From Pseudomonas oryzae (GTDB lineage: Bacteria > Pseudomonadota > Gammaproteobacteria > Pseudomonadales > Pseudomonadaceae), in the NCBI RefSeq assembly GCF_900104805.1, contig NZ_LT629751.1, positions 186,001 through 250,000 of the forward strand: a stretch of 64,000 nt of DNA, given 5' to 3'. This document shows positions 28,850 through 37,974 of this stretch, in pieces. Under the pieces are notes generated by a model that was not told the origin of the DNA, did not search any database, and saw only the letters and a list, made by a program, of their open reading frames with translations. A program made the position numbers and the translations under genes. Every line of letters begins with the position of its first letter. The stretch's first letter is position 1.

Positions 28850-31800
28850 TTAGCCGATGGTCATCAGGCTGGCGTTGCCGCCGGCGGCGGCGGTGTTGAC
28901 GCTCAGGGCGTGCTCGACCAGCAGGCGCTCCAGCGGGATGTCGCTGTCGCCCTTGTTCAGGCCGTTGACGCCGACGATCGCCCCCGGGCGCTTGGCGGCC
29001 AGCTGGCAGACTTCGCGCAGCTGGTCGGAATCGCCATGGTGGATGATGGCGTCGAAGGCCAGTTCGCAGGTGGTCCAGTCGCCGACCAGCTGGATGCGCT
29101 GCTGCACTTCCCTGGGCAGCTGGCCGAGCAGCTTGCGGTTGGCCGCGTTGTCCTGCCACAGCACCTGGCAGCCCACCGCCAGCACGGCGGCCAGCTGGGT
29201 CAGCAGGTCCTGGGCGTCGTCGGCCAGGCACAGCACGCGCTCGCGCGGCAGCAGGCTGTAGCTGTTGCGCTCGCCGGTCGGGCCGGTCAGCAGCTGGATG
29301 ATGCCGCTGGCGGCCAGCGCCGCGTAGCGCTCGGCCAGTTCAGCCAGTTCGGGCTGCTGCTTGCGCGCCCAGTCCAGCAGGGCCTGGAACACCGGGCCGC
29401 GCGACTCCGGACGCTGCACCTCGCCTTCCTGCAGCTGCTTGCTGACCGCATCCTGCGGGCGGGTGGCGAGCAGGCGGTACAGGTACAGCGGGCCGCCGGC
29501 CTTCGGGCCGGTGCCGGACAGGCCCTCGCCGCCGAACGGCTGCACGCCGACCACCGCGCCGACCATGTTGCGGTTGACGTAGAGGTTGCCGACCTTGGCG
29601 GTATCCACCACCTGGGCGATGGTCTCGTCGATGCGGGTGTGCACGCCGAGGGTCAGGCCGTAGCCGCTGGCGTTGATCTGCGCCAGCAGCTCGTCCAGCT
29701 CGGCGCGGCGGTAGCGCACCACGTGCAGCACCGGGCCGAAGATCTCGCGCTTGAGCTCGTCGAAGCTGTCCAGCTCGATCAGGGTCGGCATCACGAAGGT
29801 GCCGCGCTTGATTTCCTCGCCGTTGGCGCGCGACAGCTGGTGCACCTTGCGGCCCTTGTCGCGCATGGCCTGGATGTGCCGCTCGATGTTGCCCTTGGCC
29901 TCCTCGTCGATCACCGGACCGATGTCGGTGTTGAGGCGCTCCGGGTTGCCCAGGCTGTACTCGGCCATGGCGCCCTTGAGCATCGCCAGCACGCGGTCGG
30001 CGACGTCTTCCTGCACGCACAGCACGCGCAGCGCGGAGCAGCGCTGGCCGGCGCTGTCGAAGGCGGAGGCGATCACGTCGACCACCACCTGCTCGGTCAG
30101 CGCCGAGGAGTCGACGATCATCGCGTTCTGCCCGCCGGTCTCGGCGATCAGCGGCAGCGGGCGGCCCTGGGCGTCGAGGCGGCCGGCGAGGTTGCGCTGG
30201 ATGATCCCGGCGACCTCGGTGGAGCCGGTGAACATCACCCCGCGGATGCGCTCGTCGGCGATCAGCGCGGCGCCCACGCTCTCGCCGCGGCCCGGCAGCA
30301 GCTGCACGGCGCCGGCCGGCACGCCGGCCTCGAGGAGGATGCGTACCGCCTGGGTGGCGATCAGCGGGGTCTGCTCGGCGGGCTTGGCCAGCACGGTGTT
30401 GCCGGCGGCCAGCGCGGCGGCCACCTGGCCGCTGAAGATCGCCAGCGGGAAGTTCCACGGGCTGATGCACACCACCGGGCCCAGCGGGCGGTGGGTGTCG
30501 TTGCTGAAGTGGTTGCGCGCCTGCGCCGCGTAGTAGCGCAGGAAGTCGACCGCCTCGCGCACCTCGGCGATGGCGTTGGCGAAGGTCTTGCCGGATTCGC
30601 GCACCAGCAGGCCCATCAGCTGCTGGATCTCGGCCTCCATCTGGTCGGCGGCGCGTTCCAGCACGCCGGCGCGCTCGGCCGGCAGGGTGGACTGCCAGAT
30701 CTGCCCGCTGGCCACCGCGCACAGCACGGCGCTGCGCACGTCCTCGAGGCTCGCCTCGTGCACCTGGCCGACGATGTCGCGGTGGTCGGCGGGGTTCTTC
30801 ACCGGTTGCGCCGCGGCGGGGGCGGCGCTGTCGCAGCCGAGCATCGGCAGCGCCTGGTACTGGTGGTTGGCGGTCGACAGCAGCGCCGAGGACAGCGAGC
30901 CCAGACGATGCTCGTTGGCCAGGTCGATGCCGCTGGAGTTGACCCGCGCCGCGCCGTACAGGGCGCGCGGCAGCGGGATGCGCGGGTGCGGCAGGCCGAG
31001 GGTGCCTTCCTGGGCGGCCATCTGCTCGACCTGGGCGACCGGATCCTCGACCAGATCCTTGAGCGAGATGCTGTGGTCGGCGATGCGGTTGACGAACGAG
31101 GTGTTGGCGCCGTTCTCCAGCAGGCGGCGCACCAGGTAGGCGAGCAGCGTCTCGTGGCTGCCGACCGGGGCGTAGATGCGGCACGGGCGGTTCAGCTTGC
31201 CGTCGGCGACCTTGCCGACCACCTGCTCGTAGAGCGGCTCGCCCATGCCGTGCAGGCACTGGAACTCGTACTGGCCGGGGTAGTAGTTCTGCCCGGCGAG
31301 CTGGTAGATGGCCGACAGCGAGTGGGCGTTGTGGGTGGCGAACTGCGGGTAGATCGCCTCCGGCACCGCCAGCAGCTTGCGCGCGCAGGCGATGTAGGAC
31401 AGGTCGGTGTACGGCTTGCGGGTGTACACCGGGAAGCCTTCCAGGCCCTCGACCTGGGCGCGCTTGATCTCGCTGTCCCAGTAGGCGCCCTTGACCAGGC
31501 GGATCATCAGGCGGTGGCGGCTGCGCTTGGCCAGGTCGATCACGTAGTCGATCACGTACGGGCAGCGCTTCTGGTAGGCCTGGATGACGAAGCCGATGCC
31601 GTTCCAGCCGGCCAGCTTGGGCTCGAAGCACAGGCGCTCGAGCAGGTCCAGCGACAGCTCCAGGCGGTCGGCCTCCTCCGCGTCGATGTTGATGCCGATG
31701 TCGTACTGGCGGGCCAGCAGGGTCAGGCCGAGCAGGGTCGGATACAGCTCGTCCATCACCCGCTCGTGCTGGGCGCGGCTGTAGCGCGGGTGCAGGGCGG

Positions 31801-32785
31801 ACAGCTTGATCGAGATGCCCGGACCCTCGTAGATGCCGCGGCCGTGGGAGGCCTTGCCGATGGCGTGGATGGCCTGCTCGTAGGAGGCCAGGTAGCGCTT
31901 GGCGTCATCAAAGGTCAGCGCCGCCTCGCCGAGCATGTCGTAGGAGTAGCGGAAGCCCTTGGCTTCCAGGCTGGCGGCGTTGGCCAGCGCCTCGGCGATG
32001 GTCTCGCCGGTGACGAACTGCTCGCCCATCAGGCGCATGGCCATGTCCACGCCCTTGCGGATCACCGGCTCGCCGCTCTTGCCGATGATGCGGTTGAGCG
32101 CGGCGGTCATGCCGCTCTCGTTGTGGGTGGAGACCAGCTTGCCGGTGATCAACAGGCCCCAGCTCGCCGCGTTGACGAACATCGACGGGCTCTGGCCGAG
32201 GTGCTGGCTCCAGTTGCCGTTGGCGATCTTGTCGCGGATCAGGGCGTCGCGGGTGGCCTTGTCCGGGATGCGCAGCAGCGCCTCGGCCAGGCACATCAGC
32301 GCCACGCCTTCCTGCGAGGACAGCGAGAACTCCTGCAGCAGGCCCTGCACCAGACCCTGGCGGCCGCCGGCGTTCTTCTGGTTGCGCAGCTTCTCGGCCA
32401 GGCTCAGCGCCAGCTTCTGGCTGGCCTCGGCCAGCTCGCGCGGCATGCGCGCCTGCTCCAGCAGCATCGGCACCGCCTCGGTTTCCGGGCGACGGTAGGC
32501 GGCGGTGATCGAGGCGCGCAGCACCGACTGCGGCAGGATGCTCTCGGCGAAGTGCAGGAACACCTGCAGGCCCTGCTCGGTCAGCGCTTCCAGCGGCTCC
32601 TCGCCGGCGGCCACGGCCAGGCCGTTGTGCTCGGCCGGGGTTGCACCGCTCTCGATCTGCTCGAGGTAGTTGAAGATCGCCTGTTTGATCAGCCAGTGCG
32701 GCGTGCGGTCGATCTGCTGGGCGGCCTTCTTCAGGCGGTCGCGGGTGGCGTCGTCGAGTTTCACGCCAAGAGTGGTGCTTGCCAT
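28850..32785 (-). CDS. putA: Trifunctional proline utilisation protein PutA
   Basis: PutA oxidises proline to glutamate via proline dehydrogenase (FAD) and P5C dehydrogenase (NAD+) and represses its own regulon. At 1311 residues it has all parts: an N-terminal ribbon-helix-helix (TTLGVKLDDATRDRLKKAA), the PRODH barrel (about 200-560; GPGISIKLSALHPRYS, INIDAEEADRLELSLDL), the aldehyde dehydrogenase domain (about 640-1110; catalytic Cys in SAGQRCSALRV) and a C-terminal domain. ATG 32785 has an AGGA ribosome-binding site. Candidate operator motifs lie upstream at 32840-33092. The partner putP is absent here. Confidence 0.96.
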   Translation of the reverse strand: MASTTLGVKLDDATRDRLKKAAQQIDRTPHWLIKQAIFNYLEQIESGATPAEHNGLAVAAGEEPLEALTEQGLQVFLHFAESILPQSVLRASITAAYRRPETEAVPMLLEQARMPRELAEASQKLALSLAEKLRNQKNAGGRQGLVQGLLQEFSLSSQEGVALMCLAEALLRIPDKATRDALIRDKIANGNWSQHLGQSPSMFVNAASWGLLITGKLVSTHNESGMTAALNRIIGKSGEPVIRKGVDMAMRLMGEQFVTGETIAEALANAASLEAKGFRYSYDMLGEAALTFDDAKRYLASYEQAIHAIGKASHGRGIYEGPGISIKLSALHPRYSRAQHERVMDELYPTLLGLTLLARQYDIGINIDAEEADRLELSLDLLERLCFEPKLAGWNGIGFVIQAYQKRCPYVIDYVIDLAKRSRHRLMIRLVKGAYWDSEIKRAQVEGLEGFPVYTRKPYTDLSYIACARKLLAVPEAIYPQFATHNAHSLSAIYQLAGQNYYPGQYEFQCLHGMGEPLYEQVVGKVADGKLNRPCRIYAPVGSHETLLAYLVRRLLENGANTSFVNRIADHSISLKDLVEDPVAQVEQMAAQEGTLGLPHPRIPLPRALYGAARVNSSGIDLANEHRLGSLSSALLSTANHQYQALPMLGCDSAAPAAAQPVKNPADHRDIVGQVHEASLEDVRSAVLCAVASGQIWQSTLPAERAGVLERAADQMEAEIQQLMGLLVRESGKTFANAIAEVREAVDFLRYYAAQARNHFSNDTHRPLGPVVCISPWNFPLAIFSGQVAAALAAGNTVLAKPAEQTPLIATQAVRILLEAGVPAGAVQLLPGRGESVGAALIADERIRGVMFTGSTEVAGIIQRNLAGRLDAQGRPLPLIAETGGQNAMIVDSSALTEQVVVDVIASAFDSAGQRCSALRVLCVQEDVADRVLAMLKGAMAEYSLGNPERLNTDIGPVIDEEAKGNIERHIQAMRDKGRKVHQLSRANGEEIKRGTFVMPTLIELDSFDELKREIFGPVLHVVRYRRAELDELLAQINASGYGLTLGVHTRIDETIAQVVDTAKVGNLYVNRNMVGAVVGVQPFGGEGLSGTGPKAGGPLYLYRLLATRPQDAVSKQLQEGEVQRPESRGPVFQALLDWARKQQPELAELAERYAALAASGIIQLLTGPTGERNSYSLLPRERVLCLADDAQDLLTQLAAVLAVGCQVLWQDNAANRKLLGQLPREVQQRIQLVGDWTTCELAFDAIIHHGDSDQLREVCQLAAKRPGAIVGVNGLNKGDSDIPLERLLVEHALSVNTAAAGGNASLMTIG

Positions 32786-32839
32786 GACGGGGATCCTGTC
32801 TTGTTGTGTGCGCAGGGAGTGCGTGGCGGAAGATTAAGC

Positions 32840-33092
32840 GCAACCCTGTACCGGGTGCAACCCAGGTGCAACCGAGTCATCGGTTGCTGCCGACGAGTTG
32901 CGCTTCTGGATCCGAGGCGCACTGGCCGTCGGTCGTGCCGCGTGTGGCACAGGCCTGGAGCAAGGATAGGAGAAATCGCCGGTTGCGCGAGGACGCTGGT
33001 CGGAAGGCGCGGGCTGGTCGAGGGGTGAAACCGGTTGCCGGAATCGGTTGCGCCTGGTTCCGGGCGGGCGCGGCGGGCGGTGAGGTGCAACC
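32840..33092. promoter_or_regulatory. Cluster of GCAACC/GGTTGC motifs, candidate PutA operators
   Basis: Eight copies of GCAACC or its complement occur in 253 bases: 32840, 32857, 32868, 32882, 32981, 33033, 33046 and 33087. Three extend to TGCAAC (starting 32856, 32867, 33086), the complement of GTTGCA, the operator core known for E. coli PutA. Two are exact GGTGCAACC direct repeats 11 bp apart (32854-32862, 32865-32873). The DNA-binding domain in PutA makes autoregulation the obvious reading. Confidence 0.7.
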
Positions 33093-33142
33093 GCCGGATG
33101 GCGGCGCCGAGGACGGTGGGCGGCGCGGTCGGGGGGGGAGGG

Positions 33143-33168
33143 GCGGAAGCCCGGGCCCGGGCTTCCGC
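33143..33168 (-). terminator. 26-bp perfect palindrome after the permease gene
   Basis: A perfect palindrome (half-site GCGGAAGCCCGGG) lies 10 bases past the permease stop. It probably ends the permease transcript, although the following minus-strand sequence is C-rich rather than T-rich. Confidence 0.55.
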
Positions 33169-33177
33169 AGAGCCGGC

Positions 33178-34434
33178 TTACCAGCCGGCCGGCAGCAGCT
33201 CCAGGGAGCTGCAGATCGCGTAGGCGGCGCTGGCCAGGTAGATCAGCACGATGGCGATCTGGATCGCCGGATGGGCGATCCAGCCGCACTGCCAGGCCGG
33301 CTGCAGGTCGCCCTGGCGGCGCGCGGCGCGCAGCATCAGGATCGGCATGATCGACAGGATCACGCCGCTGAAGGCGCCGGCGAAGTACAGCGCGTTGACG
33401 AAGCCGACCATGCCGCTGTAGGCCAGCACGAAGGGCGGCACGCAGACCAGGCCGAGCACCACCAGGCGGGTCTTGGGCTGGGTTTCCGCGCCGAGGGAGT
33501 GGAACTTGTCGAAGATGTTGGTCAGGAAGCTGCCGCCCAGGCCCCAGTAGGAGGTCAGCATGGCGCACAGGGCGAAGGTGTTGGCGGTGTAGAACGCCCA
33601 CTGGCCGAGCGCCTGGCCCCAGGCCAGGGTGGCCACCTCGGTCTGGTTCTCCAGGCCGGTGAGGGCGATCACCGACATAGGCACGATCGACAGCAGCACG
33701 AAGGTCAGGCCCATGCCGGTGATCACCGCCTTGGGCAGGCGCTCGGGGGCATGGCTGAAGCCGCGCGCCATCTCCGGCACGATGTACTGGGCGGAGAAGC
33801 AGAACACCGCGATGTTGAACACCGGCACCATGTACACCCAGTCGCCCTCGAACAGGCGGGCGGCGTCGGTGTTCTCGTTGACCAGGGTGGCGATCACCAG
33901 GATGACGATCATGCTGACCATGCCGATGCTGATGAACTTCTCGCCCTTGCCGATGGCGCCCAGGCCCATGTACAGCACCAGCGCCGCCGGCACGAAGAAC
34001 AGCAGGCTGCCGAGCGCCGGGTCGATGCCGAGGAAGGCGCTGAGGATCTTGCCGCTGCCGCTCATGTAGGCGATCAGCGCGCCGATGCTGTTGACCGCCA
34101 CCGAGGCGAAGATCGCCCAGGCGCCGAACGAGCCCACGTAGCGCTGGGCCAGGCCGCTGAGCTGGTTGTGGGTGCGGGTGCGCAGCGCGGTTTCCGACAC
34201 GTAGAGCATGGAAATGGTGGTGAACACGCCGGCCACCGCCAGCCAGATCAGCAGCGGCATGAAGCCGGCCTTGCGGCTGGCGTAGGCCATCGACAGCACG
34301 CCGGCGCCGATGTTGGTGCCGACGATCATCGCCACGGCTTCGAGGAAGCTCAGGCGCTTGACCTCGAGGCCCGACGCGTCGACGGCCTCTCCTGCAGCCT
34401 GATCCTGGAAGTTCTGGACCCGGGTATTACTCAT
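33178..34434 (-). CDS. Aromatic amino acid permease family transporter (HAAAP, TyrP/Mtr-like)
   Basis: The 418-residue protein has about 11 transmembrane helices and the family N-terminus: EAVAMIVGTNIGAGVLSMAY, then ASRKAGFMPLLIWL. Later FCFSAQYIVPEMARG is also typical. HAAAP carriers import Trp, Tyr, Phe or related amino acids by proton symport. It lies upstream of putA on the same strand with a 392-base regulatory gap, in the place where pseudomonads often have a proline permease; a proline-linked substrate is therefore possible but not supported by family. ATG 34434 follows GAGGAT. Confidence 0.88.
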   Translation of the reverse strand: MSNTRVQNFQDQAAGEAVDASGLEVKRLSFLEAVAMIVGTNIGAGVLSMAYASRKAGFMPLLIWLAVAGVFTTISMLYVSETALRTRTHNQLSGLAQRYVGSFGAWAIFASVAVNSIGALIAYMSGSGKILSAFLGIDPALGSLLFFVPAALVLYMGLGAIGKGEKFISIGMVSMIVILVIATLVNENTDAARLFEGDWVYMVPVFNIAVFCFSAQYIVPEMARGFSHAPERLPKAVITGMGLTFVLLSIVPMSVIALTGLENQTEVATLAWGQALGQWAFYTANTFALCAMLTSYWGLGGSFLTNIFDKFHSLGAETQPKTRLVVLGLVCVPPFVLAYSGMVGFVNALYFAGAFSGVILSIMPILMLRAARRQGDLQPAWQCGWIAHPAIQIAIVLIYLASAAYAICSSLELLPAGW

Positions 34435-34667
34435 GACAGCATCCTCAGATGAACATTCAACCAACAGAAGGCCCTGACCTTGAGCTGCCTGGCCTTTGCG
34501 TCTGCGAACGAACGAGGGCACTGCGGGACAACGGTGGGGAAGGGGCCTCCTGGCAATCGTCCTGATTCCGGCTGGGGTGCGGAGGCAGGGTGCGGGCGCA
34601 CGGCTCCGGACCGCCGGTTTCAAGCGGGCGGTGAAAATATCACACGGGATGTTGTTTTATTTGAAAT

Positions 34668-34695
34668 GCCTGATTCGACTTTGGTCGAATCAGGC
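34668..34695 (-). terminator. Terminator after chrA
   Basis: A perfect 12-bp stem (GCCTGATTCGAC, 34668-34679, with 34684-34695) and TTTG loop lie 30 bases past the chrA stop, followed on the minus strand by an A/T-rich run. Confidence 0.8.
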
Positions 34696-34724
34696 CAGGA
34701 CAGGGCACGACCTTTGCCAGCGGC

Positions 34725-36083
34725 TCAGTTCAGCGCCAGATGCACCAGCAGCCCCGCCAGCGCGCAGCCGCCCAGCACCTCGATCACCCCGCGCTGGAAG
34801 CGCAGCAGGGCCAGCGCGGCGGCCAGGGCGATCAGCGCCGACGGCCAGTCGAAGCGGCCGGCGAAGCCTTCCGGCCACAGCACGTGGTAGCCGAAGAACA
34901 GCGCCAGGTTGAGGATCACCCCGACCACCGCGGCGGTGATGCCGGTCAGCGGCGCGGTGAAGCGCAGCTCGCCGTGGGTCGACTCCACCAGCGGCCCGCC
35001 GGCGAGGATGAACAGGAACGACGGCAGGAAGGTGAACCAGGTGACCAGGCAGGCGGCCACGGCGCCGGCGAGGAACGCCTGCTCCGGGCCGAACAGCTCC
35101 AGCACGTAGCCGCCGACGAAGCCGACGAAGGCCACCACCATGATCAGCGGGCCGGGCGTGGTCTCGCCCAGCGCCAGGCCGTCGATCATCTGCGTCGGCG
35201 TCAGCCAGCCGTAGTGGCCGACCGCGCCCTGGTAGACGTAGGGCAGCACCGCGTAGGCGCCGCCGAAGGTGAGCAGGGCGGCCTTGGTGAAGAACCAGCC
35301 CATCTGCGTCAGGTGGCCGTGCCAGCCGAACAGCGCGGTGAGCAGGGCCATCGGCAGCAGCCAGAGCAGCGCGCCGACCAGCGCGGTGCGCAGCAGGCGC
35401 GAGCCGTGAAAGCGCGCATGGGCGGGCGTCGGCGTGTGATCGTCGATCAGCGCCGGGCCGTAGGCATGTTTCGCCGCAGCGTGGCCGCCGCCGGCCTGGA
35501 AGCGCTGCGGCGCCAGCCGCCCGCCGAGGTAGCCGAGCAGCGCGGCGCCCAGCACGATCAGCGGAAAAGGCACCTGCAGGGCGAAGATCGCCACGAATGC
35601 CGCGGCGGCGATGCCCCACAGCCAGGCGTTCTTCAGGGTGCGCGCGCCGATGCGGTGGGCGGCGTGCACGACGATGGCGGTGACCGCCGGCTTGATGCCG
35701 TAGAACAGTCCGGCGACCAGCGGCACATCGCCGAAGGCCAGGTAGATCCACGACAGGGCGATCAGGATGAACAGCGAGGGCAGCACGAACAGCGCCCCGG
35801 CGATCACCCCGCCGCGTGCGCCGTGCAGCAGCCAGCCCAGGTAGGTGGCCAGCTGCTGGGCCTCCGGGCCGGGCAGCAGCATGCAGAAGTTCAGCGCGTG
35901 CAGGAAGCGCTTCTCGGAGATCCAGCGGCGGCGCTCGACCAGCTCCTGGTGCATGATCGCGATCTGCCCGGCCGGGCCGCCGAAGCTGATGAAGCCGAGT
36001 CTGAGCCAGAACCGCAGGGCTTCGCGCAGGGCAGGCGCGGCGGGGGGCGTGTCCGCTGCGGACGGGGTACGGGGTTCGGTCAT
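34725..36083 (-). CDS. chrA: ChrA-type chromate ion transporter
   Basis: The 452-residue protein is a fused two-domain CHR transporter with about 10-12 membrane helices. The N-terminal repeat has [20 protein letters not shown] and [18 protein letters not shown]. The C-terminal repeat has [20 protein letters not shown] and [13 protein letters not shown]. ChrA proteins export chromate using the proton motive force in the long-chain family. No chrB or other metal gene is adjacent, so expression control is unknown. Some CHR proteins do not confer resistance. Confidence 0.92.
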
Positions 36084-36185
36084 GGGGCGGTGTCCCTGGT
36101 GGCGGTCGCCCCCTCCCGGGCGACGGTGGCGAATGGCGAGGACTGATCCGTGGCGGGGGTACAGACTCGGCGATGGCCCGGCAGT

Positions 36186-36953
36186 TTACTCCGCGGCGTG
36201 TTGCAGGACAGCGTGCGCGTCCAGCCATTCGCCGATGCGGGCGGCCACCCAGGCGCCGTCGTCCAGCGGCAGGTCGTGGCCGGCGCCGGGATGCTCGGCG
36301 TAGGCCAGCTGCCAGTGCGCGGCCAGTGCCCGCGAGCAGTGCGGATCGACCAGTGCGTCGCGGCGGCCGCCGAGCACCAGCATGGGCAGCGGCGGGCGCC
36401 GCGCCGGCAGGCGGAAGCGCGCGGCGGCGGCCAGCTGGCGCAGGGCGTTGGCGGTGCTGACCGGATGGCGGCGGCGCAGGGCGATCCAGGCCTCCAGCAC
36501 CGCCGGATCGGCGCGCGCGCTGGTCAGGCGCAGGATAGCCGCCTCGCGCTCGCGCGCATCGCGGCTGGTCAGCACGCCGAGCAGGGCCGGGTAGCCGGCC
36601 GGGCGCAGGCGGCGGTGGAACGGGCTGAGGCCGGCGAAGCTGGTGTTGATCAGCACCGCGCCGGCCACCTCGGCCGGATGCGCCGCGGCCCAGGCCACCG
36701 CCACCATCGCCCCCAGCGACATCGCCAGGATATGCAGCGGGCCGCGGATGCCCTGCGCCTGCAGCTGTGCGCGGCAGGCCGCGACCATAGCGTCGACCGT
36801 CGGCGGGCTGGCCTCGTGGTGCCGCGCGCCGTTGCCGGGCAGGTCGAGGGCGAGGATGCGCGCGCCCGGCAGGCGCGCCGCCAGCACGGCGGGGAACTCG
36901 CCCCAGTGACCGCTCTCGCGGGTCAGGCCGCGCAGCAGGAGCCAGGTCGCCAT
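36186..36953 (-). CDS. Alpha/beta hydrolase
   Basis: The 255-residue hydrolase carries a nucleophile elbow AMSLGAM, an acid in GGRRDALVDPHCS and the catalytic His in PGAGHDLPLDDG. The N-terminus LLLRGLTRESGHWGEF gives an oxyanion-hole-type LRG in place of the usual HG. The substrate is unknown. The start codon lies one base after the stop of the upstream M14-type gene, so the two are co-transcribed and probably co-translated. Confidence 0.85.
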   Translation of the reverse strand: MATWLLLRGLTRESGHWGEFPAVLAARLPGARILALDLPGNGARHHEASPPTVDAMVAACRAQLQAQGIRGPLHILAMSLGAMVAVAWAAAHPAEVAGAVLINTSFAGLSPFHRRLRPAGYPALLGVLTSRDAREREAAILRLTSARADPAVLEAWIALRRRHPVSTANALRQLAAAARFRLPARRPPLPMLVLGGRRDALVDPHCSRALAAHWQLAYAEHPGAGHDLPLDDGAWVAARIGEWLDAHAVLQHAAE

Positions 36954-36954
36954 G

Positions 36955-37974
36955 CTAGTGCCACGGATACCAGCGGCGCAGGGCCTGCTGGCGATGCTGC
37001 TCGCGCGCCTCGCCGACCGGGCACCAGCCGCGCCAGCCGCAGGCGGCGCGGCCGACGAAGTCCAGCCACTCCACCTGGCGGCGCAGCACGCGCGCCTCGC
37101 GGTGGCCGAGCAACGGGTTGAACAGGCCCTGCAGCGACAGCAGCTGGCGCGGATTCTTCTTCACCCACAGCCAGGAGCCCATCTCCAGGGTCAGCGGCAG
37201 GTGCACCCGCGCCGGGTCGCGGCAGGCGCGCCGGTACAGGTGGTCCCACAGGTCGCCGTGGGTCAGGTACTGGCAGCTCTGCGGCTCGAACACGTAGGGG
37301 TGGTAGTGGTGGGTCTGGTCGAGCACCTCACTGAGCGCGTGCATCTCCGCCAGGTGCGGGATCGGCTTGCGGGTGCCGGCGTAGGGGAACCAGATGCGGT
37401 CGCGCAGGCCGAAGCCGGAGTGGCAGTCGACGGCGATGCTGAAGTGGTGGCTGAGCAGCTCCGCCTCCACCAGGTCGCACAGCGCCTGGCTCTCGGCCTG
37501 CATCGGGGCGCTGCGCGGGCCGCGATACCAGGGCAGGCGCGAACTCAGGCGCTGGCCGCCGACCAGGAAGGCGGCGCGCTGCTCGGCCTCCAGCGGCGCG
37601 TTGCGCATCAGGTCGACGCCCTGCGGGTTGGCGCGGGTGCCGCGCCACAGGCCGCCGGGGTTGACCACCGGCATGAACACCATGCGCATGCGCTCGAGCT
37701 GTTGCTGCAGCAGGCTGTCCCAGGCCAGGCGCGCCGCCACGCTGCGCAGGAACGACAGCACCACGCTGGCGCCGATGCGCTCCAGGCCGTGCACGCCGCC
37801 GAAGTAGCCCACCGCCGGCGCCTCCGCGGCCGGGTTGCCCAGGCTGATGGCGTACACCGGCAGGTCGTGCTCGCCCACCGCCACCCGGCACAGCACGCGC
37901 GCGTCCAGCAGGTGGCCGAGCCGGTCGAGCAGATGCTCCAGTTCGACGAGTTCGCTGGGCGCGCTGGCGGACAT
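36955..37974 (-). CDS. M14-family zinc carboxypeptidase-like hydrolase
   Basis: The 339-residue protein shows M14/aspartoacylase-type features. Zinc-site HxxE is in GGVHGLERIG, the third ligand His in VDCHSGFGLRD, substrate-binding VNPGGLWRGTR, and catalytic Glu in LPLTLEMGSW. There is no signal peptide, so it is cytosolic. M14 relatives of this size include gamma-Glu-DAP-type and succinylglutamate-type hydrolases; the substrate cannot be fixed. AAGGAG precedes ATG 37974. It forms an operon with the downstream alpha/beta hydrolase. Confidence 0.82.
   Translation of the reverse strand: MSASAPSELVELEHLLDRLGHLLDARVLCRVAVGEHDLPVYAISLGNPAAEAPAVGYFGGVHGLERIGASVVLSFLRSVAARLAWDSLLQQQLERMRMVFMPVVNPGGLWRGTRANPQGVDLMRNAPLEAEQRAAFLVGGQRLSSRLPWYRGPRSAPMQAESQALCDLVEAELLSHHFSIAVDCHSGFGLRDRIWFPYAGTRKPIPHLAEMHALSEVLDQTHHYHPYVFEPQSCQYLTHGDLWDHLYRRACRDPARVHLPLTLEMGSWLWVKKNPRQLLSLQGLFNPLLGHREARVLRRQVEWLDFVGRAACGWRGWCPVGEAREQHRQQALRRWYPWH

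Follow-up and report, generated by a model that had tools for sequence, protein, structure and literature searches.

The 392-bp stretch upstream of putA in the window (the whole 64-kb stretch of DNA that we analysed) is, judging from its own sequence and that of its relatives, very likely the control region of putA and an operator for the PutA protein itself. Autogenous PutA operators in general are already known. The motif in question is conserved, is linked to the ribbon-helix-helix (RHH) domain of PutA and is anchored to a promoter-like element. Through it the PutA operator code reaches across the family, with a built-in natural control, namely the sampled genomes whose PutA lacks the DNA-binding domain and which also lack the motif.

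A GGTTGC array between putA and a permease gene

The genes of the window genome (G000) that flank the array, and the gap between them, are as follows.

28850 to 32785, minus strand: putA, a complete open reading frame of 1311 aa with RHH, proline dehydrogenase and aldehyde (P5C) dehydrogenase domains
32786 to 33177, no strand assigned: putA upstream region, the stretch between open reading frames that forms the gap to the permease
33178 to 34623, minus strand: permease open reading frame of the Trp/Tyr type (PF03222), located upstream of putA and co-oriented with it

The preliminary description had reported eight GGTTGC/GCAACC motifs within 32840-33092, and all eight were recovered exactly, as GCAACC at 32840, 32857, 32868 and 33087 and as GGTTGC at 32882, 32981, 33033 and 33046. 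The array takes up 253 bp of the 392-bp gap, and the putA upstream region has a G+C content of 71%. The clustering had been called far above chance, which our counts bear out: 8 copies were seen in the gap against 0.32 expected from the rate in the rest of the window (Poisson P of at least 8, ~2e-9, a post hoc value to be multiplied by the ~160–250 stretches that could have caught attention). Across the whole 64-kb window there are 60 copies (shuffle mean 42.8; 0 of 100 shuffles reached 60), the densest 253-bp stretch outside the putA-permease gap holds 3, and simulation of 200 first-order Markov sequences of 64 kb gave a densest stretch of 4. Three copies (32857, 32868 and 33087) do extend to GTTGCA, as had been noted, while the remaining five read GGTTGC[G/C/T] (5 versus 0.26 expected at the window rate; P ~8e-6).

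PutA also carries the RHH domain attributed to it, with PF21775 at residues 11–43 (80.2 bits; cut-off 27) ahead of PF18327, PF14850, PF01619 and PF00171. Its residues 1–58 match five distinct solved PutA sequences (2ay0, 2jxg, 2gpe, 2rbf and 4o8a), and we take the RHH structures 2jxg, 2jxh and 2jxi to be those of P. putida. Thr5, Gly7 and Lys9, presumably the DNA contacts of the domain, are all present.

The permease belongs to the tryptophan/tyrosine family (PF03222) and so is a different transporter from PutP. Within the genus, eight genomes were compared (the window genome and seven others, hereafter the siblings): the permease adjoins putA only in the window genome; it lies elsewhere in two siblings and had no match in the other five. 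Control of the permease through GGTTGC was considered and rejected, with zero full GGTTGC words in 33092-37833. Directly after the permease stop is a perfect 13-bp inverted repeat without a loop (33143-33168). A strong terminator between permease and putA was likewise rejected, since this hairpin lacks a minus-strand T-run and the scanner called none; it is doubtful as a terminator.

The motif follows the RHH domain across the family

We compared 450-bp upstream regions of 79 RHH-bearing and 26 RHH-less members of the family, taken from 287 genomes with a match, 150 of which were listed. The 79 comprise 30 initial loci, a further 40 from the remaining 120 matches listed (25 of the 34 at ≥84% identity and 15 of the 86 others) and nine RHH-bearing genomes from another search. 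The 26 were drawn from 35 genomes picked by hand among the matches listed, and their lack of the RHH domain was judged by a match start at residue ≥90 together with the translated start, rather than by a domain search.

RHH-bearing regions contained 280 GTTGCA and 199 GGTTGCACC (permuted words: mean 12, maximum 54; 0 of 179 reached 280). The RHH-less regions contained 6 GTTGCA versus a permuted mean of 4.4 (48 of 179 words reached 6), and GGTTGCACC was found in none of the 26. Absence of the motifs upstream of orthologous putA genes had been named in advance as telling against the idea; 78 of the 79 RHH-bearing regions hold one GTTGCA or more.

At the low end, one locus of the 79 has no GTTGCA and two have a single copy. 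The RHH strand is altered in two of the three, L113 (Lys9 to Arg) and L115 (diverged), whereas L108 has an ordinary RHH yet only a single GTTGCA and no pair, which counts against a strict rule. We also observed that L113 and L115, both changed in the RHH strand, have no tandem motif upstream, hinting at a changed binding specificity of their PutA proteins.

A tandem pair anchored to a promoter-like element

The part of the array nearest to putA contains the following features.

32865 to 32873, minus strand: proximal operator unit 1, GGTTGCACC, sharing its alignment column with 7/7 siblings
32854 to 32862, minus strand: proximal operator unit 2, GGTTGCACC, sharing its alignment column with 7/7 siblings
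32855 to 32860, minus strand: predicted -35, TTGCAC, inside operator unit 2, from the spacing to TANNNT in relatives
32831 to 32836, minus strand: predicted -10, TAATCT, 18 bp after TTGCAC

The conserved core of the family is GGTTGCACC twice, usually 10 bp apart. A GTTGCA pair occurs at 10 bp in 68 of the 79 loci and at 11 bp in one, the window genome; 10 of the 79 have no GTTGCA pair at 9–12 bp, and six of these have no GTTGC pair at 10 or 11 bp either; the promoter-spacer counts cover the remaining 73 of the 79. In the window the proximal units start 11 bp apart, against 10 in the siblings, and TAATCT lies 18 bp beyond. No other locus shares this 11-bp spacing: of the 73 with a proximal GTTGC pair, the remaining 72 have 10 bp. 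It may be genuine, or the assembly may be off by one base.

In 68 of the 73 loci with a pair, the second TTGCAC is followed by TANNNT, with a spacer of 17 bp in 26 loci and 18 bp in 42; all other spacers from 5 to 39 together gave 9 matches. Because this spacer recurs despite a distance from pair to ATG that ranges from 71 to 153 bp across loci, the second operator unit most likely supplies the -35 of the putA promoter, and the operator would thus be tied to the promoter -35 and not to the start codon. A named set, the best 80 of 593 loci, which partly overlaps the 79 (L128 equals L016 over 400 bp), gave a 10-bp GTTGC pair in 80/80, TANNNT at 17 or 18 bp in 76/80 and 12 matches at other spacers. 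One Aeromonas locus and three Yersinia/Serratia loci have the pair and no TANNNT at 17 or 18 bp. The promoter scanner found no sigma-70 consensus, and TTGCAC agrees with TTGACA at three positions only. The TTGCAC-17/18-TANNNT anchoring does not appear in the consulted parts of PMC5293562, PMC5879082 and PMC8249747, and we do not claim it as novel.

For the window locus we infer PutA binding, repression and release by proline. When proline is scarce, the RHH domain of PutA would bind the GGTTGCACC units, and PutA on the side-by-side proximal units would keep RNA polymerase off; bound PutA would cover the promoter because the second unit contains the predicted -35 (TTGCAC, 18 bp from TAATCT). 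With proline present, PutA would move to the membrane as an enzyme and putA would be freed, by analogy with the proline-driven switch described for E. coli and Salmonella (consulted parts of PMC5293562 and PMC5879082).

Comparison with known put systems

The window locus resembles the put regulon of E. coli and Salmonella in its RHH-bearing PutA, its GTTGCA units, a tandem pair and several sites spread upstream; in E. coli K-12, our control, GTTGCA was found at -234, -209, -77, -67 and -32, with an overlapping reverse copy at -65. Unlike the window, E. coli has putA and putP divergent and its pair at 10 bp; here putP is elsewhere, a Trp/Tyr-type permease adjoins, the pair is at 11 bp and the A is missing from five of the eight copies. 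Genomic SELEX placed E. coli PutA at the putA/putP spacer and nowhere else (PMC8249747, in the part consulted).

P. putida has the same protein family with a closely similar RHH, and its putP is divergent from putA (PMC5879082, consulted in part, citing Vilchez 2000), whereas putP is elsewhere in the window genome. In P. putida HAI-2 (locus L168) the tandem pair is again present, and TANNNT stands at 17 bp. The bifunctional PutA of P. aeruginosa has the same enzyme activities as the window PutA, which differs in having the RHH; the P. aeruginosa protein, with PruR as a separate regulator, lacks it and is thought not to autoregulate (same part of PMC5879082).

A distal pair, probably left over from a putP operator

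Two further sites lie at the far end of the array.

33084 to 33092, minus strand: distal operator, GGTTGCACC, matched by order and orientation to the siblings' sites at -297 to -316
33046 to 33054, plus strand: distal putP-facing unit, GGTTGCGCC (GGTTGCACC in the siblings), matched by order and orientation only

In six of the seven siblings putP is divergent beside putA; it is elsewhere in the window genome (G000:C1:2572293-2573750), where no divergence across the putA region is seen, and in sibling G003. At 14 of the 15 loci with a divergent putP within 1.2 kb of putA, a putP-facing GGTTGCACC is followed exactly 18 bp on by TAGNNT, so that the putA layout is mirrored; L114, the fifteenth, has TTGCTA at 18 bp, and its facing site lies outside the stretch first scanned. 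In place of TAGNNT the window genome has GGCGGG and G003 has GCTAGG. The two distal sites are separated by 40 bp in the window, 41 bp in G003 and 45–46 bp in the putP-linked siblings; both are canonical in G003 and one of the two is in the window. The distal pair is probably the remnant of an operator for a former divergent putP. We infer this descent from order, orientation and distance; in the window, the distal sites fall outside the columns that the siblings' sites occupy in the multiple alignment. A divergent putP is not taken as a necessary feature of the control region, because 64 of the 79 RHH-bearing loci have none within 1.2 kb of putA either.

Whether the remnant still acts is a separate matter. 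The distal sites could instead be a relic of the old putP operator, in decay and without any role today, a real possibility that we do not favour. The displaced putP, the altered hexamers in the window genome and G003 where 14 of 15 linked loci have TAGNNT, and the loss of the A from one of the two distal sites in the window all fit decay. Against this, 50 of the 64 loci that lack putP within 1.2 kb keep a further GTTGCA upstream, over 60 bp from the proximal copy, G003 has both of its distal sites in canonical form, and the descent from a putP operator rests on order, orientation and distance rather than alignment. On the reading that we prefer, an autogenous putA operator, the distal pair may still assist repression of putA.

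With putA and putP apart, this lineage offers a small natural experiment on how operators behave once their target gene has left. Upstream of the moved putP, by ~460–480 bp from its ATG and directly after the stop of the preceding gene, is GGTTGCGACTGGTTGCAC (G000:C1:2574245-2574262); by eye, no TANNNT was seen 17 or 18 bp from it. The same place in G003 has two perfect units with a degenerate one between them. In L123 (G000:C1:2571000-2576500) the tandem GGTTGC pair is followed by palindrome-like stretches near TTTTTGCAAAAA and CTTCTGCAAGAAG (around 2574200-2574262), which are common in outline to G003, and the gene preceding the moved putP resembles a TonB-dependent receptor by eye. The putA neighbours differ between the window genome and G003, the two without adjacent putP; in L126 (G003:C8), the same-strand gene upstream of putA (1376–1993) resembles an XRE-cupin regulator by eye.

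Copies particular to the window genome

The remaining copies, scored for a counterpart within six alignment columns in the seven siblings, are these.

32840 to 32845, minus strand: GGTTGC copy GGTTGCGCT, within the promoter spacer, no sibling counterpart
32882 to 32887, plus strand: GGTTGC copy GGTTGCTGC, no counterpart at the same column; L010 has GTTGCG 5 columns off
32981 to 32986, plus strand: GGTTGC copy GGTTGCGCG, no sibling counterpart
33033 to 33038, plus strand: GGTTGC copy GGTTGCCGG, no sibling counterpart
32897 to 32901, plus strand: ninth, weaker GTTGC without the leading GG, GAGTTGCGCT, no sibling counterpart

The preliminary description had put the eight copies together as one array and named conservation in related genomes as a check. 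Such conservation holds for 32857 and 32868, which are aligned and canonical in 7/7 siblings, and is missing for the four copies above that have no counterpart; a further two (33046 and 33087) match by order, orientation and distance, not by column, so the eight cannot simply be counted as eight operators. The four GGTTGC[G/C/T] copies at 32840, 32882, 32981 and 33033, particular to the window genome, may be either weak extra sites or drift.

All eight or nine copies might nevertheless work as a denser homotypic array in which weak copies raise local PutA occupancy, a possibility that we consider doubtful. A weak function of the non-A copies is possible because their number (5 versus 0.26 expected) exceeds the window's own rate, and over 392 bp upstream the window's 8 GGTTGC is the highest of the 79 RHH-bearing loci (the next, at two loci, is 6). 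The change of A to G at 33046 also occurs in a proximal unit of L038, L058, L062 and L064, so that GGTTGCG is one unit of the proximal pair there. GGTTGC[CGT] is mildly enriched in RHH-bearing regions (52, the window's 5 included, versus a permuted mean of 19.7; 2 of 59 words reached 52), against 10 versus 6.7 in the RHH-less regions (10 of 59 words reached 10), which for this and the pair counts were taken as 550-bp stretches that stop 100 bp short of the match. Such an array is harder to reconcile with the four copies that lack a counterpart in seven siblings, with the 71% G+C of the region and with the lack of any non-A GGTTGC in the same stretch of five siblings (L010 has one and L012 two).

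A further reading, which we think unlikely, is that the put operators were rebuilt after the two genes separated, the core shifting to 11 bp with a compensating cluster of weak GGTTGC copies while putP kept a far-upstream tandem; in that case PutA would control two distinct promoters, each with its own operator layout.

Genome-wide scans

A scan of the genus for the 10-bp tandem (≤2 mismatches) gave perfect matches only at putA, one in each of the seven siblings. In the window genome the same scan gave two matches only, the putP site and G000:C1:3923905 (two mismatches); the window putA pair is missed by this pattern because its spacing is 11 bp. A free-spacing pair scan of the whole genome was too loose (56 pairs versus 48 for the control). 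Over 4.64 Mb, GGTTGCAC occurs 86 times versus 207 for its reversed control, so the motif is not a dispersed repeat. Other GGTTGCAC pairs are at G000:C1:2388754/2388853 (99 bp apart) and 2430412/2430880.

It is highly improbable that the copies belong to another regulator, or to a repeat or uptake-type sequence with no link to PutA. A pair that overlaps a promoter could in principle seat any repressor, but the motif tracks the RHH domain and agrees with what E. coli has at its put locus, the seven siblings carry the perfect 10-bp tandem at putA and nowhere else, and GGTTGCAC is rarer than its reversed control. Chance clustering, for which the high G+C (71%) and nothing else speaks, has practically no credence, being refuted for the core pair by family conservation and possible for single extra copies.

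Related putA loci

Among the best 80 of 593 loci, Pseudomonas linyingensis is the closest named relative, with 92% PutA identity; over 400 bp its upstream region is identical to that of G002 (L016). This makes Geopseudomonas the probable genus, a name that the taxonomy contains, though without this species under it. A plasmid search found putA-like DNA in 226 records, and the five matches listed end at or near the gene start. In L182, from Pseudomonas sp. RIT409, the putA match covers 5609 bases instead of ~3950, which suggests an insertion inside putA.
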